Source: Thalassotalea sp. LPB0316
GTDB taxonomy: Bacteria > Pseudomonadota > Gammaproteobacteria > Enterobacterales > Alteromonadaceae
Direction of reading: 5' to 3'
DNA length: 64,000 nucleotides
Assembly (NCBI RefSeq): GCF_014898095.1
Contig: NZ_CP062946.1
Location: 3,485,388-3,549,387 of the forward strand
The notes beneath the pieces are model-generated. The model ran no database searches. It saw only the letters and a list, made by a program, of their open reading frames with translations, and was not told the origin of the DNA. Positions 33,519 to 47,813 of this stretch are shown here, one piece after another. Numbering within the stretch: the stretch's first letter is position 1; each line of letters opens with the position of its first letter. A program made the translations under genes and the position numbers.

Positions 33519-34682
33519 CTAAAAATAGGCATTAGTGATCAAGGTGTTAGCCCGCATTAAAAACGCGCCATTAGCTATCACACTATCAATAGCTAAACTT
33601 TGCTCATCAAGTAAGTTGATGTCGGCGTCATTACCAAGGATTAATCGGCCTTTTTGTTTGAGCGCGAGGATATCGGCAGGTGAGCTAGTGACACTGCGCA
33701 GTGCCAACTCAATATCGACCTGATAACAATTTATTGCTTCAACAAACGACTGATGTAAGGTTTTAACTTCACCAAGTTGTAAGTCGATGAGTTTTGCTTT
33801 GTCATCAAATACCGGCAAACTCGCGTTACCGTCGGAGCTCATGGTAAGTTGCCCAATATCAACACCTTCTTGTAAGGCGATGGCAAGCGCTTGTGCAGCA
33901 GCAACTTCACCTTGTGCTAAAATTTGCGCAGTCGTGCTGGTAGTAAAATCAATATAGCCACCTTGCTTTGCAAACTCTATACCGTCTGCTAGCAGCGCTT
34001 TTGTGCGGTTAATATGGGTTGGATAAAACTGTCCTACCGGGATAGCGCTATACTCGGCGACTTCTCGCAATAAATTGAGCCCTTGCTTATCGTCGCCAAC
34101 ATGAATACTCACAATACCTGATTTACTCGCTAGCATGCCGCCGGTTCTCGCTTGTGAGGCTACTTGCGCTAGGGTTAGGTGATCAACAGGCGTTGCGCGA
34201 TGATCGGCAATGGCGACCTCCCCCACGCCAATAAACTCGTCAATGAGCATAATATCTTTGGTAATTGATTCTGTTATCGTCACCGCCGGCAAATGGTAAG
34301 AGCCGGTATAACAATAAACCGACAAGCCAAGGGCTTTAAGCTCTTTTGCCTTGGCGAGCAAGTTTTCCAAACTACGGGTGATAGCATCTGTACCTAATAC
34401 ACCAACTAATGTCGTCACACCACCAACGACCGCATCGTTAATGTGCATTTCTGGCGTGCGCGTGGTAAATCCCCCTTCACCACCACCGCCGGTAATATGA
34501 ACGAGTGAATCGACAAAACCCGGTACAACAAGCTTGCCTCTAGCATCGATAACTTCAACAAAACCACTATTGGGCATGGTTATTTCATCTTCGATGGCGA
34601 TTATTTTACCGCCGGCAATTAAAACATCCTTCCGCCCTAAATCCTGTGGCGCATACACTCGACCTTGTTTTAATAATTTCAT
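33519..34682 (-). CDS. iadA: Isoaspartyl (beta-aspartyl) dipeptidase family protein
   Basis: This 387-residue amidohydrolase follows E. coli IadA along its whole length (GGGGEGGFTTRTPEMHINDA, VGVLGTDAITRS, GKIIAI). IadA cleaves dipeptides with a beta-aspartyl bond, including beta-Asp-Arg from cyanophycin. Metal ligands His62, His194, His223 and Asp284 are kept. The first His of the usual HVH pair is Leu60, and the bridging carboxylated lysine region reads GVGEVAIADHR, with Glu155 in place of Lys. The activity or metal count may therefore differ. No signal peptide is present, so it acts in the cytoplasm. It is the third gene of the TonB receptor/permease/iadA cluster. Confidence 0.88.
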   Translation of the reverse strand: MKLLKQGRVYAPQDLGRKDVLIAGGKIIAIEDEITMPNSGFVEVIDARGKLVVPGFVDSLVHITGGGGEGGFTTRTPEMHINDAVVGGVTTLVGVLGTDAITRSLENLLAKAKELKALGLSVYCYTGSYHLPAVTITESITKDIMLIDEFIGVGEVAIADHRATPVDHLTLAQVASQARTGGMLASKSGIVSIHVGDDKQGLNLLREVAEYSAIPVGQFYPTHINRTKALLADGIEFAKQGGYIDFTTSTTAQILAQGEVAAAQALAIALQEGVDIGQLTMSSDGNASLPVFDDKAKLIDLQLGEVKTLHQSFVEAINCYQVDIELALRSVTSSPADILALKQKGRLILGNDADINLLDEQSLAIDSVIANGAFLMRANTLITNAYF

Positions 34683-34719
34683 TTAATTCTCATTTTAATT
34701 TTCGTCTGCGTTGAACCAA

Positions 34720-36174
34720 CTAGCTAAAGTTGATCATCACGGCAAAAACCACAAAACTTGCCGCTAAGGCAATTAACACCAACATAAATTTGGCGATAAA
34801 CTTAGCCCAAATAACCCAATCGACTTTGGCTACCCCCAAACAGCCGATCAGTGATGCCGATGTTGGAATAATAATATTGGTTAAGCCGTCACCTAATTGA
34901 AAGGCCAATACCGCAACTTGTCTGGTTACACCAACGAGGTCAGCGAGTGGCGCCATCAAGGGCATAGTTAAAGCAGCTTGGCCTGAGCCAGAAGCAATAA
35001 AAAAGTTAAACACTGACTGAAACACCAACATCAATAACGCCGACACGTAGCTTGGAAAATCACCAATCGTTTGACCCGCGTAATGCAACAAGGTGTTGAG
35101 TACCGACGGCTGACTCGGATCGTCGCCGCCGAGTAAAATCACGATCCCCTTTGCCATGCCAACAATCATCGCCGCCGGCAATAACTCTTGTGCCCCGTGT
35201 TTGAAGGCGTCTGCGGCATCGTTCAGCACAATGCGTTTTCCAATGACAGCGACAGCAGCGATGACACAGCCCATAGCAAAAAACTGGCTAGCAATTTCAG
35301 GTAGGTAGTAGCCTTTTTCTACCACGCCCCAAATCACCCAAGCGATCGACAAAGCAAAGATCGATAAAATCACCGCATCTACTTTACTAAATTCACCGGC
35401 ACTAAGTGTTATCTCTGCTTGTCTTTGGTCTGTGCCACTGGTTTGTGCTTTGATCTGGTTAGCGTGTTTGACGGTAAAAATAACACCGACAAGGGTAAAT
35501 ACACTCCACATGGTCATGCGAAATGGTGTCCCCGACAATAACGGCACATCAGCAATACCTTGCGCAATAGCAACGCTAAATGGATTCATCCATGACGCGG
35601 CAAAGCCAATCTGAGTGGCAACATAAGTGACCAATACTGTGGTTAGGGCATCGTAGCCAAGTGCCCGCATGAGCGGCAACAAGACAATGCAAAAAGCTAT
35701 CGCTTCTTCTCCCATACCGAATATCGCACCACCGAGTGAAAACATGACGAATAGCAAAGGGATAAACAGATAATCAAGTTTCTGCGTTTTGTTGATCAAG
35801 GCCAAAATGCCGTTATTTACCGCACCGGTTTTCATGACAATACCAAAAGCACCGCCGGTAATAATGATAAACATCATCACGCCAATCGCCGATCCCCACT
35901 TGGTTCCTGAAACCATACCTTCAAAGGCAAAGTTAAAAAAACCAACGCCCCCACTATCGGCAAAAATTGGCACGCCTTGTGTGCTTTGTAAGCGAAAGCT
36001 ATCTGCGATGATCATCGCTTTTTCACCCTCACTAGGCACCGACATTTGAAAACTGCCCGCAGGAATAACATGGGTTAAAATGGCTGCAACCAGTACCACA
36101 AAAAACAAAATAATCAGCGCGTCAGGCATGGTAGAAGAAGGCGCTACCGCCTTTTCTGAAGTTGTATCTTTCAC
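34720..36174 (-). CDS. YfcC family permease
   Basis: This is a polytopic inner-membrane transporter of the YfcC/DcuC superfamily, about 484 residues from GTG 36174. The start region MPDALIILFFVVLVAAILTHVIPAG and internal GMGEEAIAFCIVLLPLMRALGYD are family hallmarks. About a dozen hydrophobic helices run to the C-terminus. Family members are thought to move amino acids, peptides or dicarboxylates. A longer frame to 36231 would translate through the hairpin after the receptor gene, so I prefer the later start. Lying between iadA and the TonB receptor, it probably imports the dipeptide that IadA cleaves. Confidence 0.82.
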   Translation of the reverse strand: MKDTTSEKAVAPSSTMPDALIILFFVVLVAAILTHVIPAGSFQMSVPSEGEKAMIIADSFRLQSTQGVPIFADSGGVGFFNFAFEGMVSGTKWGSAIGVMMFIIITGGAFGIVMKTGAVNNGILALINKTQKLDYLFIPLLFVMFSLGGAIFGMGEEAIAFCIVLLPLMRALGYDALTTVLVTYVATQIGFAASWMNPFSVAIAQGIADVPLLSGTPFRMTMWSVFTLVGVIFTVKHANQIKAQTSGTDQRQAEITLSAGEFSKVDAVILSIFALSIAWVIWGVVEKGYYLPEIASQFFAMGCVIAAVAVIGKRIVLNDAADAFKHGAQELLPAAMIVGMAKGIVILLGGDDPSQPSVLNTLLHYAGQTIGDFPSYVSALLMLVFQSVFNFFIASGSGQAALTMPLMAPLADLVGVTRQVAVLAFQLGDGLTNIIIPTSASLIGCLGVAKVDWVIWAKFIAKFMLVLIALAASFVVFAVMINFS

Positions 36175-36211
36175 GTTATAGCTCTGGTTATTTGAATAAA
36201 AGAATAAGGCT

Positions 36212-36232
36212 ACCACAGTGTGGTAGCCCAAC
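36212..36232 (-). terminator. Hairpin between TonB receptor and permease genes
   Basis: GGCTACCACA and TGTGGTAGCC are 10-base perfect arms around one base, five bases after the receptor stop codon. On the minus strand the hairpin is followed by TTATTCTTTTATT. It may end most receptor transcripts, letting a fraction through to the permease and iadA. Confidence 0.65.
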
Positions 36233-36237
36233 GATAC

Positions 36238-39195
36238 TTACTTAAAGAAGTAGCTAAATGATAACTGGTAGTTGACACCTAGCGCATTGTGGTTGATAGA
36301 ATCAAAACCACGACGTGAACCATAAGCTACCGGCGGCTCTTCATCAAACAAGTTGTGCACCGTAAAGTTGAGGTTCATATTGTCGAAATCATAGCCCATG
36401 TTAAAACGCACGGTTGTCCATGAATCAACATCGCGTTCGCCGTTAGCATCTAACTCACCTAACGCTTCAAGTTCATCAATATTACGACCGCGTAATCGTT
36501 TTATATCGTCTTGATATGAGCTTGTGTAATCAGCCGTGATACTGGTGTAAAACTGCTCGCCTACCCAGCCAAGTCTAAAGCTTGCGATATTTTCAGGATA
36601 ACGCCAAGTTCCAATGAGCTCTTCAACATCGCTTGAACCGGCAAGATTGCGCTCAAAACTTGCGTAATGCGTGCCATCAATAGAGAAAGTTAAACGACCT
36701 TCGGCAAAATTGACACTGTGATCAAAGGCTAAATCAAAGCCACTTACCTCCTGTGTACCTGTGTTATCTAACTGGATAACATGATCGCGGTATAAAGGTA
36801 AGGCATCCTCTCGACCAAAGCCAGCGGCAACCCATTGATCTAAAATTTGTGTTAAATTCGCCCCGTCTTGCTCAATGTTCAAACCGTTGCTATCTAAGAA
36901 TTCGTAGAGCACACCATCATCGACAATACCGCTACAAAGCACTTCTTCATATGAAATACCCATGCTGCCTTCGGGCACTAAACCACAATGGCGAAGTGAG
37001 GCATCGTTAATGGCATCATTTAGCACTGCTGTCATATCGGTATCAATCAGCTGTTCGTGCTTAAACGACCAGTAATCAAGTGATAAATGGGTATCTGAAG
37101 ACGGGCTCCATGCAAAACCGAGGCTAACCGACTCTGATTCTTCGGGTTTCAAATTAGCGTTACCCAACTCCAAAACATTTGGGCTTGAGGTAAAACCATC
37201 GCCTTCACAGTATAAGTCAGCTACTGCTTGGTTTGCCGAGCAATCGTAAGTTGCTGTCGTTGTTCTTAGTTTTACACCTGCCTGGGTGAGTGAAGGCGCT
37301 CTAAATGATGTTGACCACGCTGCGCGCAAGATAACCGATTCATGCGGGCGATAAGTGACACCAACCTTAGGGTTAAAGGTATCGCCAAAGTCGTTGTAAT
37401 CGTCGTAACGACCGGCAAGTTGCAACTCTATCTGATCGGTAATTGGCCAGTAAAATTCAGCAAAGGCTCCCCATTGATTGCGATCCGCTTGTGATAAACT
37501 TGAACCAAAACCAAAAACATCAACTAAGTAGTCGTTTTCAAACCGTGCTCGAGCATTCATCGACGGAATATCGTTGATTTCTTCGCGTCTAAATTCAACG
37601 CCAAAGGCTGCGCTTATCATATGATCGTTGACTTCGGCGATATCACCAGAAATTTTTGCATCAATGCCGTAAACGGTGCTTTCACCGTCGCGAGTTGGCA
37701 TTTCTTGAGCCATTGCGAGTAACGCATCGTTGGTTGCATCTCCCGATAAAAATGGGTTGTACGTGCCAAGCAATTCACCCGCACCACAGCTAAGTGTATC
37801 GCTGTCGTAGTCGTAATCAGCAATTGAGCCGTTACTGCATAATTCGCCTGTGCTTACTGCGTGATACTTGTAGCGGTTGTAAATACCCGCACTAGCTACT
37901 TGTTCAGATTCAGATTTTGATAACGTGATACCCGTTTCCCAAAACCACTCACCCCATTCGCCTGATAAACTCGACACTAAACGCATTGCATCGGTTTCGA
38001 TATCAACAGTACGTGGACTTGCGAAACGCGCATCGTACCTAAAGCCCCAAAGCTGTTGTCCAGCTTGCGTATCAAACGGATCTATCCACATGTCGTAGAT
38101 TAATGCATCGGCTACCTCTGGTGAAAAAGCACCATAAATAGCCTCTTCGCCAACCCAAGGGCCTTCAGTGTCGTCAACTTGATCAATTGGCGCTGGCGAT
38201 GAAACGGCTCGCGACTTAGTGTTACTAATAAAGAAATCAGTATTCCACGTTACATCGTTAAAGTCGTAACTATAGATAAAACCTGCTGAGCTCGTTTCTA
38301 GCGCCGAGCGCAATTGGTCATCTTCGTTGCTGTAGTAGGCACAAATCTCTTCACCGTACTCAGTGGTAACAAAATCTGTTTTACAATCTGGATTGCCAAT
38401 TTCGTTGCCGTCATAAGCCGAGTAGTAATAAATATTTGGCGTGTGCTTTGGCAAATATGAGTAGTTGCTCACCAGTACAGGATCACGGGTATAGCTTCTA
38501 TCTTGAGCGTGAAATGCGTTGCGATCAAAATGATCGGCAAAAACAGTTAAGTTACCACCGGCAACTTCACCACCCCAAATGAAGTTGAGGTTGTATCGAC
38601 CTTCATCTGAACTGGCAAAGCTATTACCGTATGAGCCATTAATTTCAGCGCCTTGATAATCCGTTTTGAGGATGTAGTTGATCACCCCAGCAACGGCATC
38701 AGCACCGTAAATTGCCGATGCACCAGTCGCCAACACTTCAACTCGCTCAATCGCCGAAAGTGGGATTGAGTTGATATCGACAAAGTTTTGCGTCCCCGCG
38801 GCAAATGAGCTAGCAGCCACTCGGCGGCCATTGATCAAGGTCAGCGTTGATGAAGGTCCTAAGCCTCGCAATGATGCTGCTGCTTGTCCCGCAGGTGTTG
38901 ACGTTGAAGTTGCACCACTTTCAGAGGTGTTAAATGAGCCAACACCACCGCGAGTTTGGCTAATTTGCGCCATTAATTCTGAAATTGAACTGGCGCCTGA
39001 GCTGCGGATAGCCTGGGCATCAATAACCACTAACGGTTGCGTGCCTTCAAGATCAACCCCTTTGATTTGACTACCGGTAACTGTGATTTTTTCAATCGCA
39101 GCTGTTTCGTTTGATTGGTTACTTCCCTCTTGCGCATTAGCGTTAAATATTGCTAACACAGACAGTGCTACTGCCGATAACGTAAATTTTTTCAT
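36238..39195 (-). CDS. TonB-dependent outer-membrane receptor
   Basis: This 985-residue receptor has a signal peptide (KKFTLSAVALSVLAIFNANAQ), a TonB box-like EKITVTGSQI near residue 36, and a plug domain with SSGASSISELMAQ and LRGLGPSSTLTLINGRRVA. A large beta-barrel follows, ending in a terminal aromatic strand (LSFSYFFK). The size and plug sequence match the polymer or peptide import class common in Alteromonadales. ATG 39195 puts the signal at the N-terminus, whereas a longer frame from 39327 does not. It heads the receptor/permease/iadA set and faces the cyanophycinase gene across a 392-base shared control region, so its ligand may be cyanophycin fragments. Confidence 0.92.
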   Translation of the reverse strand: MKKFTLSAVALSVLAIFNANAQEGSNQSNETAAIEKITVTGSQIKGVDLEGTQPLVVIDAQAIRSSGASSISELMAQISQTRGGVGSFNTSESGATSTSTPAGQAAASLRGLGPSSTLTLINGRRVAASSFAAGTQNFVDINSIPLSAIERVEVLATGASAIYGADAVAGVINYILKTDYQGAEINGSYGNSFASSDEGRYNLNFIWGGEVAGGNLTVFADHFDRNAFHAQDRSYTRDPVLVSNYSYLPKHTPNIYYYSAYDGNEIGNPDCKTDFVTTEYGEEICAYYSNEDDQLRSALETSSAGFIYSYDFNDVTWNTDFFISNTKSRAVSSPAPIDQVDDTEGPWVGEEAIYGAFSPEVADALIYDMWIDPFDTQAGQQLWGFRYDARFASPRTVDIETDAMRLVSSLSGEWGEWFWETGITLSKSESEQVASAGIYNRYKYHAVSTGELCSNGSIADYDYDSDTLSCGAGELLGTYNPFLSGDATNDALLAMAQEMPTRDGESTVYGIDAKISGDIAEVNDHMISAAFGVEFRREEINDIPSMNARARFENDYLVDVFGFGSSLSQADRNQWGAFAEFYWPITDQIELQLAGRYDDYNDFGDTFNPKVGVTYRPHESVILRAAWSTSFRAPSLTQAGVKLRTTTATYDCSANQAVADLYCEGDGFTSSPNVLELGNANLKPEESESVSLGFAWSPSSDTHLSLDYWSFKHEQLIDTDMTAVLNDAINDASLRHCGLVPEGSMGISYEEVLCSGIVDDGVLYEFLDSNGLNIEQDGANLTQILDQWVAAGFGREDALPLYRDHVIQLDNTGTQEVSGFDLAFDHSVNFAEGRLTFSIDGTHYASFERNLAGSSDVEELIGTWRYPENIASFRLGWVGEQFYTSITADYTSSYQDDIKRLRGRNIDELEALGELDANGERDVDSWTTVRFNMGYDFDNMNLNFTVHNLFDEEPPVAYGSRRGFDSINHNALGVNYQLSFSYFFK

Positions 39196-39329
39196 GTTCT
39201 GACCGTTTATAATTTTAATGGTAAATTGTGACCAGCGTTCCAAAGGTACAAGCAACTGCAGATACACCAAGGACTGGGCTTTAACGGAGTTTTTGTAAAG
39301 AGGGGGAGATGAAGTCGCAGACGCCAATC

Positions 39330-39356
39330 CCCCAGAAAACTCAAGGTTTTCTGGGG
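39330..39356. promoter_or_regulatory. Strong hairpin in the shared receptor/cyanophycinase control region
   Basis: CCCCAGAAAAC and GTTTTCTGGGG pair perfectly around a five-base loop. There is no T-run on either side, so it is not a plain terminator. It lies about 135 bases upstream of the receptor start and 230 bases upstream of the cyanophycinase start. The rest of the 392-base gap holds no gene I can see. It could be an operator or an mRNA leader structure. Confidence 0.45.
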
Positions 39357-39587
39357 TTATTCGTCAAACCACTCCGAAAGATAAAAATTCGAGTAGTAAT
39401 ATGTTGTCAGCGTGAAAGCTTTCTTGTACATATTAAAAAGGTCTTCGATTAATTTAGAGCTTGACCCTAATCAAGCTCATTCAAAATTCACTTAATTTAT
39501 AGATACCGTTGTCATAAAAAATTGTCAACAACAATGTTAAAAAAACGTTTAGATTCGTCAATCAATCGTTAAAATAGGAATTTTGAA

Positions 39588-41390
39588 ATGCGACTATTTT
39601 CTGCAATTTTGCTGCTATTTTCTGCCATAACGCTGGCAAAAACCGAAAACACACCTTACAAACCAAGCCAGCTTTTTTTAGTTGGTGGCGGTTTAAAATC
39701 TTGTTCATCAATGTCAAAAAACCAATGTTTGACACCCGAAAAGCATCAAGAAATAGAAGTTAACAACAGCAAAACCCATGCGCTTTTTCAGCTAAACCAC
39801 AAAACGCGAGCACAAGTTTTCGCCTTAATGGATCAAGAATATTCTGCTGAGCATGCTAAACAATTAAAAAAATTACTTAATAAAGCGATAAAAAACGCGA
39901 GTAAAACCCCGGTTAGCAAAGGGGAAATGGTTAAGTTTTTAAAAACATTTGATAACAACCAACTCATTAATCGACTATCCGACCCTGAATATTTTTTACT
40001 CTTAGATGCCTTAGAAATTGCTCAGATTGATAAAGTAACCGGCGAAAGGCTGCAGGAAACCGTCGATTTAGACCGCTCAAAAAATAGTTTTACCCCGCAG
40101 ATCTATCGCGACTTTGTTAAACGAGCACAACGGCTAACTCACCAACAACGACCCCATATTTTGGTGGTAACAGCATCGGCAAGAGATAGTTTTGAAGCGG
40201 TTGATTTTTATATTCAAGCGTTTGTTCAAGCTGGCGCAAATACGCAGTGGCTACCAATTGACGCAAGCTTGCAGCCGCTTATTAGTGCTACAGCAAACGA
40301 TAGAGCAAACCTGTGTGATCAACTGCCAACCAAACGACTAGCAATCCAAAAGTCAGCCTACCGCGAAGCTATTTATCCTGACTTAGTTCATCAGCAACGC
40401 CTTGCATGTCTAGAACCACAGCGCTTGCTCGAACAAGTAAAACAGGCCGATGGGATTTTTATTAACGGCGGCGATCAATCGCTAACTAAGCAAGCATTTA
40501 TTAAGGCCAATGGCCAAGACACCGAGGTAATGGCATTAATTCGAGAAAAGTTTGACCGTGGTAATTTTATTATTGGCGGCACTAGTGCTGGTACTGCAGT
40601 TATGGCAGGCGGTCAATTTAATCAGCACGCTATGGTGATGATCACCAGTGGCCAAAGTGATAGAGCCATGTTTTATGGTGCCCACGCCGATGTTGTGCCT
40701 ACCGAGGGCTGTCAAAAATCAAATACTTGTAACGATGCGCCAAACGATCAACTCACTTATGCAACGAGCGGCGGCTTGGGACTGTTCAATCTTGGTATTT
40801 TAGATACCCATTTCTCAGAGCGCGGTCGTCAGGGACGTTTAGCCGTACTAGCACATACGACTCAACATCAACTCGCTTTTGGCGTAGATGAGCGGACAGC
40901 TTTAGTGGTAACTAGACTAAACCAAGATAAACACGAATTATCTGTCGTTGGTCAATCGGGTGTGTTTATTGTTGAAAATCCACTGATTGCTAACAATACA
41001 AACGCTAATAATACTGACACCAACAACACACCTAGTCGCTTGACGGTTAAAACTCACTATATTCACCAAGGCGATAGTCTCGTCGTAAATGACACCGGCA
41101 CACTTAAGTTTTCATTGTCAAAAGATAAAGTTGTAACCGAGCAAACGACGGGGCTATTACCTGAAATCAACAATATTTTTGCTGGTGAAAATTATCTGAA
41201 GGCAGCTAAATTATTGTGCTTATCGGATCAAACTGAGTTAATCGGTAATGTCTCTTACGATAACCAACGTGGTAAGGTAATAGTGACAAAAACTGAGCAC
41301 AGTGTTTCTGTACAAGGGTTATATCAGTTGGCGAAGGTCGAAAAGCACGACTGCTCATATACTCACTATCAGCTGACGTTAAGCCACTAA
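39588..41390 (+). CDS. Exported cyanophycinase (peptidase S51 family)
   Basis: This 600-residue protein has a signal peptide (RLFSAILLLFSAITLAK), so it acts outside the cytoplasm. Cyanophycinases cut the Asp-Arg polymer cyanophycin to beta-Asp-Arg dipeptides. The serine protease-like core is complete: Ser333 in GGTSAGTAVMAGG, His408 in DTHFSERGRQGRL and Glu435 in GVDERTALVV, with the upstream FINGGDQSL loop that binds substrate. An N-terminal insert (about 50-180) and a C-terminal part (about 445-600) make it longer than the roughly 270-residue cyanobacterial enzyme, as in secreted CphE-type members. It is divergent from the TonB receptor/permease/iadA genes. Confidence 0.9.
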   Translation: MRLFSAILLLFSAITLAKTENTPYKPSQLFLVGGGLKSCSSMSKNQCLTPEKHQEIEVNNSKTHALFQLNHKTRAQVFALMDQEYSAEHAKQLKKLLNKAIKNASKTPVSKGEMVKFLKTFDNNQLINRLSDPEYFLLLDALEIAQIDKVTGERLQETVDLDRSKNSFTPQIYRDFVKRAQRLTHQQRPHILVVTASARDSFEAVDFYIQAFVQAGANTQWLPIDASLQPLISATANDRANLCDQLPTKRLAIQKSAYREAIYPDLVHQQRLACLEPQRLLEQVKQADGIFINGGDQSLTKQAFIKANGQDTEVMALIREKFDRGNFIIGGTSAGTAVMAGGQFNQHAMVMITSGQSDRAMFYGAHADVVPTEGCQKSNTCNDAPNDQLTYATSGGLGLFNLGILDTHFSERGRQGRLAVLAHTTQHQLAFGVDERTALVVTRLNQDKHELSVVGQSGVFIVENPLIANNTNANNTDTNNTPSRLTVKTHYIHQGDSLVVNDTGTLKFSLSKDKVVTEQTTGLLPEINNIFAGENYLKAAKLLCLSDQTELIGNVSYDNQRGKVIVTKTEHSVSVQGLYQLAKVEKHDCSYTHYQLTLSH

Positions 41391-43382: not shown

Positions 43383-44627
43383 TTACGAGCCGCCAAGCAG
43401 AGCATCAAATGGCTCAATGACCACGCTTTCACCTGCCGAAACACTCCCCTGATCTTTAGCTAGCACGATAAAACAATTGGCCCTGCCAATACTCGATAAC
43501 ACACCAGAGCCTTGCACACCGGTTGAAACTACTGAGATTTCGCCAGCTTGATTGACATTATAATAGCCACGCTGAAAATCCGTGCGACCCGGTGCTTTTT
43601 TCAGATCAGTTTGCGTTTTGGCGATAAAACGTGTTCGTTCTATTGGTGTTGCGCCGGCTATTTTGGCTAAACCATGCATGGCTATTTGATAGAACGTCAC
43701 CGCAGCTGAGACAGGGTTACCTGGCAATCCAAAGAACACACTGTTGGGCAATAGACCGAAAGCCAAGGGTTTACCCGGTTTCATTGATATTTTCCAAAAG
43801 CCAATTTTACCAATGCTATCGAGCACCATTTTAGTGTAATCGGCATCACCCACTGAAACACCGCCACTTGAGATAACAACATCAGCGTGTTGATCGGCGT
43901 GATGAAAGGCTTGTTTTATCTGCTCAAAATCGTCGGCAATAATACCATAATCTAGGACATCAGCATTAATTTTCGCCAACATGTGTTTTAAAAAATGGCC
44001 ATTTGATTCGTAAATATCACCGGCAGTAAGCGACTGACCAGGTGATTTTAATTCATCGCCAGTTGCAATTAGCGCAACCTTTATTTTTCGATAAACACTC
44101 AGCGATTCAATACCAACCGATGCTAACAGTGCGATGTCAATCGCGCTTAATCGTTTACCTTTAGATAAAATGATTTGGTTTTGTGAAATATCCTCGCCCG
44201 CTCGGCGAATATTTTGCCCTTGGCGAATCTCTTGTAAGAAGGAAATAGTGTCGCCTTCGACCTGACAATGCTCTTGCATAACTACGGTGTCACAGCCTTC
44301 AGGAACCACAGCGCCTGTCATAATCCGAACACACTGGCCTAGCAAGCACTCGCCCACAAAGGGTGCTCCAGCCATTGATTTACCGACAAGGCTAACCGTT
44401 TTGTTATTGGTTAAACTGGCAAAGTTAACCGCGTAGCCATCCATTGCCGAGTTATCGTGCGGCGGCACTTGAATAGGGCTTATCACCTCGGTCGCAAGTA
44501 TTCGATCAAGTGCTGAATCTAGCGGTACTAATTCAGTATCTTCAACTGTTTGAATGTTTTCTAAAATATGAAAAATCGCTTGCTCTACACTGAGAAACTG
44601 CTGATCAGAAAAACAATCGCAACTCAT
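43383..44627 (-). CDS. moeA: Molybdopterin molybdenumtransferase
   Basis: This enzyme inserts molybdenum into adenylated molybdopterin. The 414 residues show the MoeA motifs VPPHDNSAMDGYAV near 56, GDELKSPGQSL near 193, SSGGVSVGDADYTK near 245 and GLPGNPVSA near 297. AAGGG lies six bases before ATG 44627, so I prefer it to the TTG two codons upstream. It is divergent from the moaA-moeB operon across a 564-base gap that holds a MITE-like element and a Moco riboswitch. Confidence 0.95.
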   Translation of the reverse strand: MSCDCFSDQQFLSVEQAIFHILENIQTVEDTELVPLDSALDRILATEVISPIQVPPHDNSAMDGYAVNFASLTNNKTVSLVGKSMAGAPFVGECLLGQCVRIMTGAVVPEGCDTVVMQEHCQVEGDTISFLQEIRQGQNIRRAGEDISQNQIILSKGKRLSAIDIALLASVGIESLSVYRKIKVALIATGDELKSPGQSLTAGDIYESNGHFLKHMLAKINADVLDYGIIADDFEQIKQAFHHADQHADVVISSGGVSVGDADYTKMVLDSIGKIGFWKISMKPGKPLAFGLLPNSVFFGLPGNPVSAAVTFYQIAMHGLAKIAGATPIERTRFIAKTQTDLKKAPGRTDFQRGYYNVNQAGEISVVSTGVQGSGVLSSIGRANCFIVLAKDQGSVSAGESVVIEPFDALLGGS

Positions 44628-44692
44628 AGCCAACCCTTGATTAAAAATAATGAACTATCTTACGGAAAACTTGTTGGCGATCAAAGTAGTTA

Positions 44693-45007
44693 ATACCAAT
44701 CCGAATAAATAAATGTTCACTCAGCTTGAGATAAAAGTTGCTAATACAAGACACATGCTGTTAAGACATAGTTATTCTATTTCAAATAGTATGTAACGAA
44801 GTAGTAGTGACTTTTAGCCAAGCCCTTTGGGAGCTCGTCAGCAGCCCGACTACTGCCCATAATTTGCAAAATATACAACCACATGGATGGGGGAGGTAGA
44901 GCGACTCAGGAGACAAAGCCGAGAATGACTATATTGTACAAATTCTGATTGTACTCGAACTGCTGACGTAGCTCTGAGTAGAGCATATTATTATGCGGCT
45001 TGGTATA
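44693..45007. mobile_element. MITE-like element
   Basis: The ends ATACCAATCCG and CGGCTTGGTAT form imperfect terminal inverted repeats about 315 bases apart, and each is flanked by TA, which fits a target-site duplication of a Tc1/IS630-type element. No open frame of useful size lies inside, so any movement would need a transposase elsewhere. It occupies most of the moeA-moaA gap. Confidence 0.5.
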
Positions 45008-45068
45008 AGTTGAGTTATCTAAATAAATATTCTAGTATCAACTAACAATTGAAATAAGTGTTCAATTC

Positions 45069-45186
45069 GCCGAGCTTTCAGCGCTACCTTACCTGTGAGT
45101 AACAAGTGCTTTGAGCCGTAGTTGCGCAAGTGCTGTAACTACCAGGGTTAGACTGGAAACGATCTAGCCTCCCGACATTTGGAAAG
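45069..45186 (+). ncRNA. Moco riboswitch
   Basis: The leader of moaA contains conserved pieces of the Moco RNA motif: GCCGAGCTTTCAGCGC at the 5' end, TTTGAGCCGTAG in the middle, and CTCCCGACATTTGGAAAGG next to the start codon. A stem GGTTAGA/TCTAGCC lies between. These match the E. coli moaA leader in order. The last segment includes the moaA ribosome site, so cofactor binding would reduce translation when Moco is plentiful. Confidence 0.88.
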
Positions 45187-45191
45187 GTGAT

Positions 45192-46163
45192 ATGTTAACA
45201 GACGACTTTGGCAGAAGGTTTTACTACCTTAGACTGTCGATCACAGATGTTTGTAACTTTCGTTGCGAATACTGCTTACCTGACGGTTATCAATGTGATA
45301 CCGACAGGCAATTCTTATCGCTTGAAGAAATCAAACGCACAGTTAACGCCTTTGCTTTAATGGGCACCGAAAAAGTACGCATAACGGGTGGCGAACCTTC
45401 GTTGCGCAAAGATTTACCCGACATTATCAACGCGGTTGCGAACACAAATAAAATTCAAACCGTGGCACTGACCACCAACGGCTACAAACTCACTTCTCAA
45501 TACCAAGACTGGCTCGACGCTGGTTTAAACGCCTTAAATATTAGTATTGATTCATTAATACCTGAACAATTTAATTTGATCACCGGCTCAAACAAGTTAG
45601 GTGAGATTTTAACGGGCATTGATGGCGTGCTAGCCGACGGTCGCGCCAAGCTAAAAGTTAACGCCGTACTGCTCAAACAATATCACAAGCAGCAATTAGA
45701 CTACTTTTTTGACTGGGTGAAAGAAACCCCAGTATCTGTGCGTTTTATCGAATTAATGGAAACGGGTGACAACAAAGCCTATTTCGAAAAACAGCACATT
45801 AGCGGCACAACAATTCAAAATCAACTATTTGAGCGTGGCTGGGTACCGGTCATTAAAGAAAAAAGCGCAGGGCCGGCAATTGAATACTGCCATAGTGATT
45901 ATCAAGGCAAGATTGGCTTGATAATGCCTTATAGCAAAGATTTTTGTGCATCGTGTAATCGTCTGAGAATGAGTGCGTTAGGTAAGCTACATTTATGCTT
46001 ATTCGCCGAACAAGGCTTGTCATTGCGCGAATATTTACAGGAAGACGATCCAACGCCATTAATCAATGCCGTATCACAGCTGATCCACGATAAAAAGGCA
46101 ACTCACTTTTTACACGAGCGCTTGACCGGTGCGACATCTCATTTATCCATGCTTGGTGGTTAA
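45192..46163 (+). CDS. moaA: GTP 3',8-cyclase (molybdopterin precursor synthesis)
   Basis: This radical SAM enzyme performs the first step of Moco synthesis on GTP. The N-terminal cluster motif is CNFRCEYCLP, the C-terminal second cluster is FCASCNRLRMSALGKLHLC, and the essential Gly-Gly tail is present (SMLGG). The length, 323 residues, matches the family. It is first in the moaA-moeB operon, directly behind the Moco riboswitch. Confidence 0.96.
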   Translation: MLTDDFGRRFYYLRLSITDVCNFRCEYCLPDGYQCDTDRQFLSLEEIKRTVNAFALMGTEKVRITGGEPSLRKDLPDIINAVANTNKIQTVALTTNGYKLTSQYQDWLDAGLNALNISIDSLIPEQFNLITGSNKLGEILTGIDGVLADGRAKLKVNAVLLKQYHKQQLDYFFDWVKETPVSVRFIELMETGDNKAYFEKQHISGTTIQNQLFERGWVPVIKEKSAGPAIEYCHSDYQGKIGLIMPYSKDFCASCNRLRMSALGKLHLCLFAEQGLSLREYLQEDDPTPLINAVSQLIHDKKATHFLHERLTGATSHLSMLGG

Positions 46164-46166
46164 ACG

Positions 46167-46805
46167 ATGAGAGGTAATAACACATGTTTAGGTGTCGTTT
46201 TAGCCGGTGGTTTATCCTCGCGTATGGGGCAAAATAAAGCACAGTTATTACACCCTAAACAACAAAATATGCTCAGTTTTAGCTCCGCCTTATTAACCGA
46301 TGTTGGCGTTGATGGCGTTGTTCAAAGTATCGGCTATAACACACAACCTACAGGTGCCAACCAAATTGCCGATAAATACCCAAACCTCGGCCCTCTTGGT
46401 GGTATAGCAACAGTGTTTGAAACCACACCACATGTGCACAGCTATTTAATTTTGCCGGTTGATTTACCCTTGTTAAGCGCACAATGTCTTAGCCAGTTAA
46501 AACAAGTGGGGCAATTGAGCCAAATGGCTTGTCATTTTTCCGATCATTATTTGCCACTATATTTACCGAGAACGGCCATGACCGAGTTGTTTTTTCAAAA
46601 CCTAAAAACGAGCCAAGCGAATGCCAGCAAGCTGACAACTAAGAAAGATAAATCACTATCGATAAGACAGTTATTAAAACAAATTCAACATCGCGCCATT
46701 GGGCTTGATCGAGCTCACCAACAGCAACTATTTAATTGCAATACCGCAGAGCAATGGCAACAAGCGACCAATCAATTAACATTACGAGTAAACGACTATG
46801 AGTAA
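46167..46805 (+). CDS. mobA: Molybdenum cofactor guanylyltransferase
   Basis: This enzyme attaches GMP to Mo-molybdopterin to make the bis-MGD cofactor. The nucleotide motif VLAGGLSSRMGQNKAQ is at residues 12-27, and PVDLPLLSAQ near 98 is the usual second motif. It has 212 residues. It starts 3 bases after moaA and overlaps moaB by eight bases. Its presence suggests that the cell makes DMSO-reductase-type molybdoenzymes. Confidence 0.9.
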   Translation: MRGNNTCLGVVLAGGLSSRMGQNKAQLLHPKQQNMLSFSSALLTDVGVDGVVQSIGYNTQPTGANQIADKYPNLGPLGGIATVFETTPHVHSYLILPVDLPLLSAQCLSQLKQVGQLSQMACHFSDHYLPLYLPRTAMTELFFQNLKTSQANASKLTTKKDKSLSIRQLLKQIQHRAIGLDRAHQQQLFNCNTAEQWQQATNQLTLRVNDYE

Positions 46806-47334
46806 AACCCCTGTGCCTTTTCAACCGCTAAACATTGCCGTGTTAACGGTTTCAGATACCCGTGACGAAGCAACTGATACTTCAGGTAAAGCCTTGGTTG
46901 ATCGGGTACTTGATGCAGGCCATCAATTAGTCGAAAAAGCCATCGTCAAAGATGATATTTATCAATTGCGCGCCATCGTTTCTCGCTGGATTGCTGACGA
47001 GAAAGTTGACGTAGTCATTTCTACCGGCGGCACTGGCTTTACCGCTCGAGACAACACCCCCGAAGCGCTAAGCGTATTATTTGATAAGCAAGTAGAAGGC
47101 TTTGGTGAAACGTTTAGGCACATTTCACTTGGTGAGATTGGCACGTCAACCATTCAGTCTCGCGCCTTTGCAGGCATGGCAAATCACACCGTAATTTTTT
47201 GTGTACCTGGCTCAACTAACGCGTGTAAAACAGCGTGGGATAAGATCATCAAAGAACAAATTGATGCCTCACATCGCCCCTGTAACTTTGTCCCGCATTT
47301 AAATTTAGCGGCAAAATGCCAATCAAGAGGCTGA
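46798..47334 (+). CDS. moaB: Molybdopterin adenylyltransferase, MoaB/MogA type
   Basis: This 178-residue protein activates molybdopterin by adenylation, the step before MoeA. The MoCF motifs [19 protein letters not shown] and [18 protein letters not shown] are intact. Downstream RPCNFVPHL is typical of MoaB. No separate mogA is in the window, so it may carry the adenylation role alone. It overlaps the end of mobA. Confidence 0.92.
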
Positions 47335-47336
47335 TA

Positions 47337-47813
47337 ATGACAACACAACTTACGCATTTAAACGAGCAAGGCCAAGCCAATATGGTCGATGTTACCGATA
47401 AACACGTTACTACTCGAGAAGCCCGTGCAGTCGGTTATATTGAAATGTCTGAGCTCGCCTTAACCCTCATTCAACAGGGCGAACATAAAAAAGGCGATGT
47501 ATTTGCCATTGCCCGTATAGCCGGTATTCAAGCAGCGAAGAAATGTAGTGACTTGATCCCCTTATGTCACCCGTTAATGCTGACAAAAATCAATGTCGAC
47601 TTTGAAATAGATGAAAACAAACGCCGAGTCTACGTGCACACTTTGTGCAAATTAGCTGGCCAAACAGGGGTGGAAATGGAAGCGCTAACGGCGTGCTCTG
47701 TTGCTTGTTTAACCTTATACGATATGTGCAAAGCGGTCGATAAACACATGCGCATTGGCGGCATTGAAGTTATTGCTAAATCGGGTGGTAAATCAGGCGA
47801 TTGGCAGAAATAG
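47337..47813 (+). CDS. moaC: Cyclic pyranopterin monophosphate synthase
   Basis: MoaC completes the conversion of the MoaA product to cPMP. From ATG 47337, with AGAGG upstream, the protein has 158 residues, close to E. coli. [13 protein letters not shown] and the active-site [12 protein letters not shown] (Asp and Lys) are present. A longer frame from 47316 overlaps moaB and adds residues absent from the family. Confidence 0.96.

Follow-up and report, generated by a model that had tools for sequence, protein, structure and literature searches.

A conserved putative leader peptide and a distinct isoaspartyl dipeptidase clade at a candidate cyanophycin scavenging locus of Thalassotalea and other gammaproteobacteria

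Cyanophycin is a polymer in which cyanobacteria and some other bacteria store nitrogen. In 45 of 52 genomes that lack cphA1 but contain both a cyanophycinase and an isoaspartyl dipeptidase gene, the two genes lie in a cluster, and such clusters have been read as probable scavenging clusters (PMC10206079). The same source credits to Ben Hania et al. a "cyanophycin utilization locus" of strain L21-Spi-D4, in which a cyanophycinase, iadA and a transporter lie together. For a TonB receptor of Citromicrobium sp. JLT1363, encoded near a cyanophycinase, cyanophycin was predicted to be the substrate in 2012 (PMC3400609). In Pseudoalteromonas tunicata a putative secreted cyanophycinase, and in a Thalassotalea the use of extracellular cyanophycin, have been predicted (PMC2536512 and PMC7564069, respectively). 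Here we describe a related locus in Thalassotalea sp. LPB0316, found in a stretch of 64,000 nucleotides (the window) that is the final 64 kb of its one-contig 3.55 Mb genome. The locus joins a cyanophycinase to a TonB-dependent receptor, a YfcC-type permease and an IadA dipeptidase of an unusual clade, and a short unannotated leader open reading frame (ORF) precedes the operon. We consider it likely that the locus serves to scavenge cyanophycin and is controlled by a leader peptide.

Coordinates given without a locus or genome label are positions in the window. Three genes lie on the minus strand, namely isoaspartyl dipeptidase IadA of the LxH clade described below (33519-34682; TIGR01975), a YfcC-type inner-membrane permease of the DcuC/PF03606 family (34720-36231; NF008611) and a TonB-dependent receptor with Plug and TonB barrel domains (ORF 36238-39327, likely gene 36238-39195). 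A predicted exported cyanophycinase of the CphE type, peptidase family S51, is divergent from them on the plus strand (39588-41390). A first-pass annotation had named these four genes and read them as a cyanophycin utilisation system. ORFs are present at the positions that it gave, their families agree in profile scans, and the reading as such a system is supported. Its inventory stands for the four genes and is incomplete for the rest, as it overlooked the leader ORF in the gap between receptor and cyanophycinase and the odd LxH form of the dipeptidase.

Like the L21-Spi-D4 locus, as presented in the available part of PMC10206079, the window holds cyanophycinase, iadA and transporter genes together. 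These clustered genes, with no cphA1, are what characterizes a cyanophycin utilization locus, and the L21-Spi-D4 locus was likewise read as scavenging. The window differs from it in the TonB receptor, YfcC, the LxH-clade IadA and the leader, and in belonging to Alteromonadales-type gammaproteobacteria. The Citromicrobium case shares the receptor close to a cyanophycinase gene and the predicted substrate; it is a single neighbourhood from another class, and the available text of PMC3400609 does not mention YfcC, IadA or a leader. The first-pass annotation knew of no description of the pairing of receptor and permease. In the accessible portions of the literature on cyanophycin with receptor, dipeptidase, transporter and YfcC, neither the combination of receptor, YfcC and IadA nor the LxH clade nor the leader was found to be described. 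The receptor beside a cyanophycinase (PMC3400609) and the utilization locus (PMC10206079) are, however, already in that literature. The locus type is thus known in outline, and the three-gene set, the dipeptidase clade and the leader go beyond the prior descriptions found.

Relatives were collected by a search with the cyanophycinase alignment, and the best 80 of 176 were taken with flanks of up to 10 kb. Judging by record titles, all 80 are gammaproteobacteria. Partner genes were called by tblastn with the window's four proteins, receptor matches down to ~30% identity being counted. The co-occurrence of the four genes in relatives had been proposed as a check of the original reading. All four are found in 61 of the 80 loci, well beyond chance, and the window's gene order is kept in 53 of the 80. 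IadA is missing in five loci (two of these at contig ends), and the cyanophycinase stands alone in seven (three at contig ends). Among the best 80 of 176, the nearest named relative is Thalassotalea loyana, with a cyanophycinase 61% and a receptor 84% identical to those of the window. Three Pseudoalteromonas megaplasmids are annotated with cyanophycinase, TonB-dependent receptor, yfcC and iadA, in that order.

A sample of 394 genomes of the order contained cyanophycinase in 41 genomes (cut-off E <=1e-20), IadA in 69 and the receptor in 27 (cut-off E <=1e-60). All 20 receptor matches of at least 285 bits lie within ~5 kb of a cyanophycinase on the same contig, so that the expected association of this receptor clade with cyanophycinase is borne out by 20 of the 20 strongest matches. 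Seven weaker matches include one that is adjacent (G059) and six that are not (G005, G159, G203, G146, G374 and G040). YfcC adjoins the cyanophycinase in 32 of the 41 cyanophycinase genomes. Searches for CphA, YfcC and IaaA covered 80 chosen genomes of the 394. Among genomes of the same family that lack S51 and IadA, 17 were searched and none has a YfcC match of at least 450 bits; unlinked YfcC matches are present in several other genomes.

The cyanophycin synthetase CphA has no match in the own genome of the strain, which makes scavenging likely. CphA is present in two of the 41 cyanophycinase genomes (G292 and G152) and in nine of the 80 chosen genomes in all.

Some neighbouring genes were noted along the way. 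An arginase gene lies beside iadA on one of the Pseudoalteromonas megaplasmids (arginase-family gene L194:12877-13986, minus strand). An arginase-family gene (L193:4563-5672, plus strand) is also near the partner-less cyanophycinase of a Pseudoalteromonas megaplasmid, and Pseudoalteromonas shioyasakiensis A316 has a cyanophycinase without partner genes and an arginase close by. A gene for a 762-767 residue protein behind three lone or receptor-less S51 genes was considered as a second receptor and rejected. It encodes a hybrid PAS histidine kinase, perhaps a regulator (L025:11872-14160 and L028:11837-14140, plus strand; L162:5992-8283, minus strand).

The cyanophycinases CphB and CphE have a Ser, His, Glu triad and the substrate residues Gln101, Asp172, Arg178, Arg180 and Arg183, and the extracellular CphE has Thr where CphB has Gln173 (PMC3235067). 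In an alignment of 26 sequences the window enzyme has all of these substrate residues (Gln297, Asp406, Arg412, Arg414 and Arg417) together with the CphE-type Thr407. The triad proposed by the first-pass annotation, Ser333, His408 and Glu435, is correct; no row departs from His408 or Glu435, and at least 90% of the rows keep Ser333. In one row, the Flocculibacter homologue P0075, Asn stands in the Ser333 column, and this protein may be inactive. The Peptidase_S51 profile (PF03575) gives 34.8 bits (cut-off 23.9). The AlphaFold2 model has a mean predicted local distance difference test score of 89.2, and its best solved-structure matches are the cyanophycinases 7uqw and 3en0, one of them with a cyanophycin dimer (TM-score ~0.74 by target length). 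The pseudo-CphB 7uqv is a close second (TM-score 0.70-0.72). A signal peptide was read by eye from the sequence, and no lipobox Cys was seen. The window enzyme is classed as CphE-like on residues and fold rather than through the cyanophycinase model TIGR02069 because the protein has large extra parts. It shares with Pseudomonas CphE, as described in the available part of PMC3235067, the signal peptide, the GXSXG Ser-His-Glu triad, the substrate residues and the Thr for CphB Gln173. The two differ in size, since the window protein has 600 residues with added N- and C-terminal parts and CphE is the product of a 1260-bp gene. We therefore take the S51 enzyme to be a predicted exported cyanophycinase of the CphE type, with catalysis likewise predicted.

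The permease scores 661 bits against NF008611, above the equivalog cut-off of 500, and its probable true start is near 36129 from a reading of the sequence. The family is named "putative basic amino acid antiporter", and gene order suggests basic amino acids or beta-Asp-Arg as the substrate. By a similar reading the receptor likely starts at ATG 39195, with a signal peptide, and not at TTG 39327. No specific subfamily model exceeds its cut-off for the receptor in the profile scan, and the best paralogue in its own genome reaches 147 bits only. Its position in the locus points to beta-Asp-Arg or short fragments as the imported substrate.

The gap between receptor and cyanophycinase was aligned from eight relatives chosen regardless of motif, and it contains one strongly conserved block. 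On the operon strand this block is an unannotated 24-codon ORF, MYKKAFTLTTYYYSNFYLSEWFDE-stop in the window (39357-39431, minus strand), ~160 nucleotides (nt) 5' of the receptor start. An operator was considered for the block and rejected because the codon pattern shows coding. The C-terminus of the leader is YLSEW(F/W)(D/N)E-stop. Sixty-two distinct 24-mers were selected by the rule (Y/H)LSEWF(D/N)(E/N)-stop. Lys3 and Tyr17 are present in all 62, Ala5 and Tyr11 in 59 each and Leu8 in 54; position 23 is Asp in 40 and Asn in 22, and position 24 is Glu in 59 and Asn in three. Ten Shewanella and Aliidiomarina/Idiomarina loci that first seemed leaderless carry YLSEWWDE or YLSEWWNE. With the YLSEWF and YLSEWW forms both counted, all 73 of the 73 loci with a partner gene (receptor, YfcC or IadA) carry the leader. 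In every case it lies 5' of, and on the same strand as, the receptor or YfcC gene, at most 400 nt away except in L016 (543 nt), and in the receptor-less loci L020, L025, L027, L033, L034, L040 and L051 it precedes YfcC.

The leader is absent from the four lone cyanophycinase loci with enough flank (L028, L075, L080 and L081) and from all six of another group of lone S51 loci (L162-L167), of which two match S51 weakly. The partner-less L011 and L070 do have it, L070 on a cut contig and L011 before another gene, and L009 is cut at that place. The L011 leader, from a Colwellia metagenome-assembled genome, is a 26-residue variant ending HLSEWFDE (L011:6236-6316, plus strand), and the gene behind it encodes a second S51 cyanophycinase-like type with a PPC domain (L011:6344-7792, plus strand). 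In two loci a second leader ending YLSEWFNN (L032:11970-12044 and L067:11907-11981, plus strand) precedes a different TonB receptor of ~880 residues beside the same cyanophycinase, the receptor being identified by family scan in L032. The leader also precedes a gene for a protein of 273-283 residues in seven of 13 loci of family f25 and in L182 (family f34), where the peptide is longer than 24 residues. A family scan (L120, L182) identifies this protein as a Lys/Arg/Orn-type binding protein, and in the loci followed (L117, L120, L126 and L182) an LxH IadA comes next.

Searches of raw DNA gave a similar distribution. A strict DNA pattern has a single match in each of seven of 96 genomes of the order, with none for the reversed control pattern; six matches are at the cyanophycin locus and one is before a Lys/Arg/Orn binding protein and LxH IadA. 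This pattern misses the YLSEWW and final-Asn forms, which are present at the fetched loci of G005, G014, G059, G071 and G089. The leader is thus present in at least 12 of the 96 genomes, a count of strict matches across whole genomes and of variant forms at these five loci. A slightly looser pattern in 75 genomes of the class found the window's own leader only. Among 72,556 plasmid records the peptide has three tblastn matches, all unannotated and all at the cyanophycin locus. The core letters of the leader have no occurrence in the full text of 5.39 million papers, a search that does not reach figures or other papers. As judged from these sequences, the leader could serve as a sequence tag that marks such loci in raw DNA.

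The codon pattern and placement show a short ORF 5' of an operon that is conserved as a peptide, as expected of an arrest leader. Among 51 distinct 27-mers, the Leu and the Ser of the motif each use six codons, AGY included, without change of amino acid. Pairwise codon differences in the last eight codons are 3246 synonymous and 693 nonsynonymous, a ratio that leans to conservation as the sequences were picked by their amino acids there; in the first 16 codons the numbers are 9919 and 20514. An ATG lies exactly 24 codons before the stop in 72 of 73 distinct leaders. Conserved residues reach the stop codon (YLSEWF in the 62 24-mers and YLSEWW in ten loci), and the stop itself is biased. Under a search rule that accepted any stop, the 73 distinct leaders end in UAG (52) or UAA (21) and never in UGA, and the large genes of the same loci end in UAA (173), UAG (46) or UGA (45). 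The enrichment of UAG has a Fisher p of ~1e-17, a value inflated by kinship. UAG is read by release factor 1 (RF1) only, and UGA by release factor 2. The stop bias therefore indicates a function at RF1-mediated termination.

In the window a stem-loop of 11-12 pairs is predicted by RNA folding directly 3' of the leader stop codon (39330-39356, minus strand), and the folded leader RNA exceeds its shuffles in stability by a modest margin (z -1.88; five of 100 shuffles fold equally well). Across the 73 distinct leaders, the 45-nt segments that follow the stop are on average more stably folded than shuffles (mean z -2.17), and 66% of them score under -1.5. A hairpin with compensatory changes, suspected from two sequences, is not strictly conserved. 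In the next 80 nt, C exceeds G in 67 of 73 leaders, compared with 32 of 73 upstream of the leader. This C-rich, G-poor RNA resembles a Rho-loading site. No promoter is claimed, since a sigma-70 scan found six promoter-like sites against a shuffle mean of 15, fewer than expected by chance.

Known arrest peptides suggest how such a leader might act. TnaC is a 24-residue leader whose Trp-dependent stall at the stop codon shields a Rho utilization (rut) site from Rho, and SpeFL is an ornithine sensor that inhibits RF1 (PMC8429421). The layout is like that of the leader described here, and TnaC and SpeFL themselves arrest at a stop codon on a small ligand. By eye the leader has no sequence likeness to either, its stops are UAG or UAA, it serves other operons, and its arrest is proposed. 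The available part of PMC8429421 also names the fungal arginine attenuator peptide among ligand-sensing arrest peptides. Like the leader it is a short upstream peptide and it senses arginine; it acts on the eukaryotic ribosome, so that any likeness would be convergent. The fungal peptide has 24 residues, a Tyr-Leu-Ser-acidic stretch and a Trp.

The scheme that we propose starts from what the sequence shows, namely which genes are present and how they are linked, their catalytic and substrate residues, the specificity of the receptor, and a leader that is coding and has a fixed place. To this it adds conjecture on the transported substrates, on secretion, on arrest and its ligand, and on control by Rho. 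Foreign cyanophycin would be cut to beta-Asp-Arg by the exported cyanophycinase, either extracellularly or in the periplasm. Beta-Asp-Arg or short fragments would pass the outer membrane through the TonB receptor, YfcC would carry the dipeptide (or Arg) through the inner membrane, and in the cytoplasm the LxH-clade IadA would split beta-Asp-Arg into Asp and Arg. Translation of the 24-residue leader would come before that of the operon genes. In the presence of a cationic ligand derived from cyanophycin, YLSEWFDE would stall the ribosome at UAG or UAA by blocking RF1, and the stalled ribosome would mask the C-rich, G-poor RNA so that transcription of receptor, permease and dipeptidase continues, as with TnaC and SpeFL. 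Beta-Asp-Arg, Arg or Orn are proposed as the ligand because the target operons share the handling of arginine or cyanophycin.

The dipeptidase of the locus departs from described IadA enzymes. It belongs to the IadA family by profile (TIGR01975, 452 bits, cut-off 331) and by fold, and Leu60 replaces the first zinc-ligand His of the HxH motif. The resulting LxH is found in all 68 locus IadAs, which therefore lack the two-His pair. His62, Glu69, Thr98, Tyr129, Glu155, Arg162, His194, His223, Arg226 and Asp284 are invariant in the same 68 proteins. E. coli IadA has both His68 and His70, and LmIadA is described with both His of HxH (PMC10206079). The PDB chains whose alignment was inspected (5xgw, 5xgx, 8dqn, 7cf6 and 7cdh) are also HxH. 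In the available part of PMC5517026, IadA is split into two types only, with Glu (Type I) or carbamylated Lys (Type II), and the ZN1 ligands of the Glu-type CpsIadA are His73, Glu166 and Asp293. The list omits the first His, which may account for this residue having become dispensable.

IadA translations of at least 330 residues were aligned after de-duplication (133 sequences; fold alignment, 44 sequences), and 100 of the 133 rows were used for a tree by a quick method with the trait column retained (1 of 388). There are three groups, HxH with Lys (the E. coli type), HxH with Glu and LxH with Glu. In this tree a single branch, with a Shimodaira-Hasegawa-like approximate likelihood ratio test value of 100, separates the LxH group from the other rows. 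Ser249 and Glu259 are present in 115 of 115 distinct LxH sequences and in 0 of 10 HxH-Glu sequences. Sequence alignment with LmIadA places both in or beside its loop 251-262, which lies at the opening for the non-Asp residue (PMC10206079), and Glu259 may contact the guanidinium of beta-Asp-Arg. The LxH clade is like Types I and II in fold and remaining active-site residues, and it differs in the Leu for the first His and in the invariant Ser249 and Glu259 over the side-chain pocket. The locus dipeptidases form one distinct clade, neither Type I nor Type II, and a putative third type outside the two-type scheme of PMC5517026, so far as its available text goes.

The order sample holds 74 IadA genes, and all 34 that lie beside a cyanophycinase are LxH (one on a split contig, G127). 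Within the flanks fetched, CphA lies beside six of eight HxH-Glu genes (L105-L109 and L118), and L105 has CphB and CphA by family scan. In the fetched flanks, many of them short, CphA lies beside none of six HxH-Lys genes, none of 60 LxH genes of the order sample and none of the 68 LxH genes of the 80 loci. Genome G292 has both kinds, with HxH IadA, CphB and CphA on one contig and LxH IadA, YfcC, receptor and cyanophycinase on another. In L097-L103, all of one genus, an LxH IadA lies close 3' of a Lys/Arg/Orn-type binding protein of an ATP-binding cassette (ABC) transporter, without leader or cyanophycinase; the full ABC operon was family-scanned in L097. The own genome also has an unlinked IaaA-type gene (PF01112; G000 C1:2594761-2595696), a possible second isoaspartyl dipeptidase. 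A linked IaaA as a replacement for absent IadA was considered and rejected, as by coordinates no PF01112 match lies beside an S51 gene in the 80 chosen genomes. For the complete loci without IadA (L055, L058 and L076) the family scan covered five of their ORFs, none of which is IaaA and one of which, in L055, is an unrelated amidohydrolase.

Other explanations of the leader and of the locus must be weighed. The 24-residue peptide might be a functional small protein of the same cyanophycin locus, for example one that sits in a membrane, associates with the receptor or is secreted as a signal. Its coding nature and its conservation, which extends to the N-terminal part (Lys3, Ala5, Tyr11 and Leu8), would fit this. 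A free microprotein, however, needs neither the absence of UGA nor the enrichment of UAG, and it would not need invariant residues that abut the stop, a length fixed at 24 (72 of 73) or a place before the first gene whatever its identity. We regard this account as unlikely, while allowing it some weight. Classical attenuation, in which the leader codons and not the peptide would report the charging of Tyr or Trp tRNA, is highly improbable. Tyr11, Tyr13, Tyr17 and Trp21 codons recur and many leaders have a hairpin behind the stop, but Leu18, Ser19 and Glu20 are equally constant, with the Leu and Ser codons free (73 of 73 loci fit the LSEW rule). Furthermore the window has no U-tract behind its hairpin, as read on the operon strand, and the sensing of tyrosine or tryptophan would be odd for an arginine polymer.

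The enzymes allow two further doubts. All 68 locus IadAs have lost the first zinc-ligand His, and the own genome has an IaaA-family gene (G000 C1:2594761); both would fit an LxH IadA that is dead or repurposed, with the unlinked IaaA splitting the dipeptide. Against this, the ten other checked active-site positions are invariant in all 68, 68 of the 73 loci that have any partner gene retain IadA, and the ZN1 ligands of CpsIadA listed in PMC5517026 do without the first His, though LmIadA has both; a dead or repurposed enzyme is improbable. Quite improbable, too, is a locus for other isoaspartyl peptides, or for scavenging basic amino acids in general, whose S51 enzyme is not a cyanophycinase. 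Every catalytic and substrate residue of CphE is present, the CphE-type Thr included, the solved structures closest to the enzyme are those of cyanophycinases, of which one contains a cyanophycin dimer, and the leader stands beside or before two cyanophycinase types, that of the window and the PPC-S51 of L011. In favour of another substrate are the presence of non-cyanophycinases in S51 (PMC9239234), the LxH IadAs found with Lys/Arg/Orn transporters without S51, and the promiscuity of IadA enzymes. The promiscuous enzymes include one from a cyanophycin cluster, and that tested IadA is of the HxH type (PMC10206079).

Scavenging under leader-peptide control remains the preferred reading, and a number of observations weigh against it. 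The cyanophycinase scores 115 bits with TIGR02069 (E 3.7e-33), under the cut-off of 126.6. The receptor is missing in seven of the 80 loci and is only ~30% identical to that of the window in the Shewanella loci, and nine of the 41 cyanophycinase genomes have S51 without adjacent YfcC or IadA. The 40 IadA genes of the order sample that are not beside a cyanophycinase comprise 26 LxH and 14 HxH, and G003 and G029 have CphA plus an unlinked LxH IadA, so that there is no strict rule. By a looser comparison, no leader is found at L132 and L145, which have a divergent S51, YfcC and LxH IadA, at the LxH IadA loci L088-L092, L097-L103 and L123, or in six of 13 f25 loci. The invariance of leader positions 18-21 is partly an artefact because the search rule demanded LSEW, and p-values overstate because related sequences are not independent. 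Pairs of the post-stop hairpin are not strictly conserved, and Rfam has no match at E up to 1 in 39100-39700.

Its sequence makes the leader a candidate for a new family of arrest-type regulators. A broader proposal is that YLSEW(F/W)(D/N)E-stop is a new bacterial arrest-peptide family that senses arginine, ornithine or beta-Asp-Arg and holds off RF1 at UAG or UAA. It would control a cyanophycin/beta-aspartyl-arginine regulon across several gammaproteobacterial families, alongside a third IadA type (LxH, Glu259) specialised for beta-Asp-Arg. We lean only slightly towards this broader proposal.

Next to the locus, positions 43383-47813 resemble a molybdenum cofactor cluster (MoeA, MoaA, MobA, MoaB and MoaC-like), by the look of the ORF translations.

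Marine and aquatic gammaproteobacteria would have in this locus a conserved route, from outer to inner membrane, for importing the nitrogen of cyanophycin. The LxH clade bears on the question, raised in PMC10206079, of whether cyanophycin-linked dipeptidases become specific. The 62 natural 24-mers of the strict set make the leader mechanism directly testable. If the arrest peptide is true, a nitrogen-related ligand would join the small molecules sensed by bacterial nascent chains.

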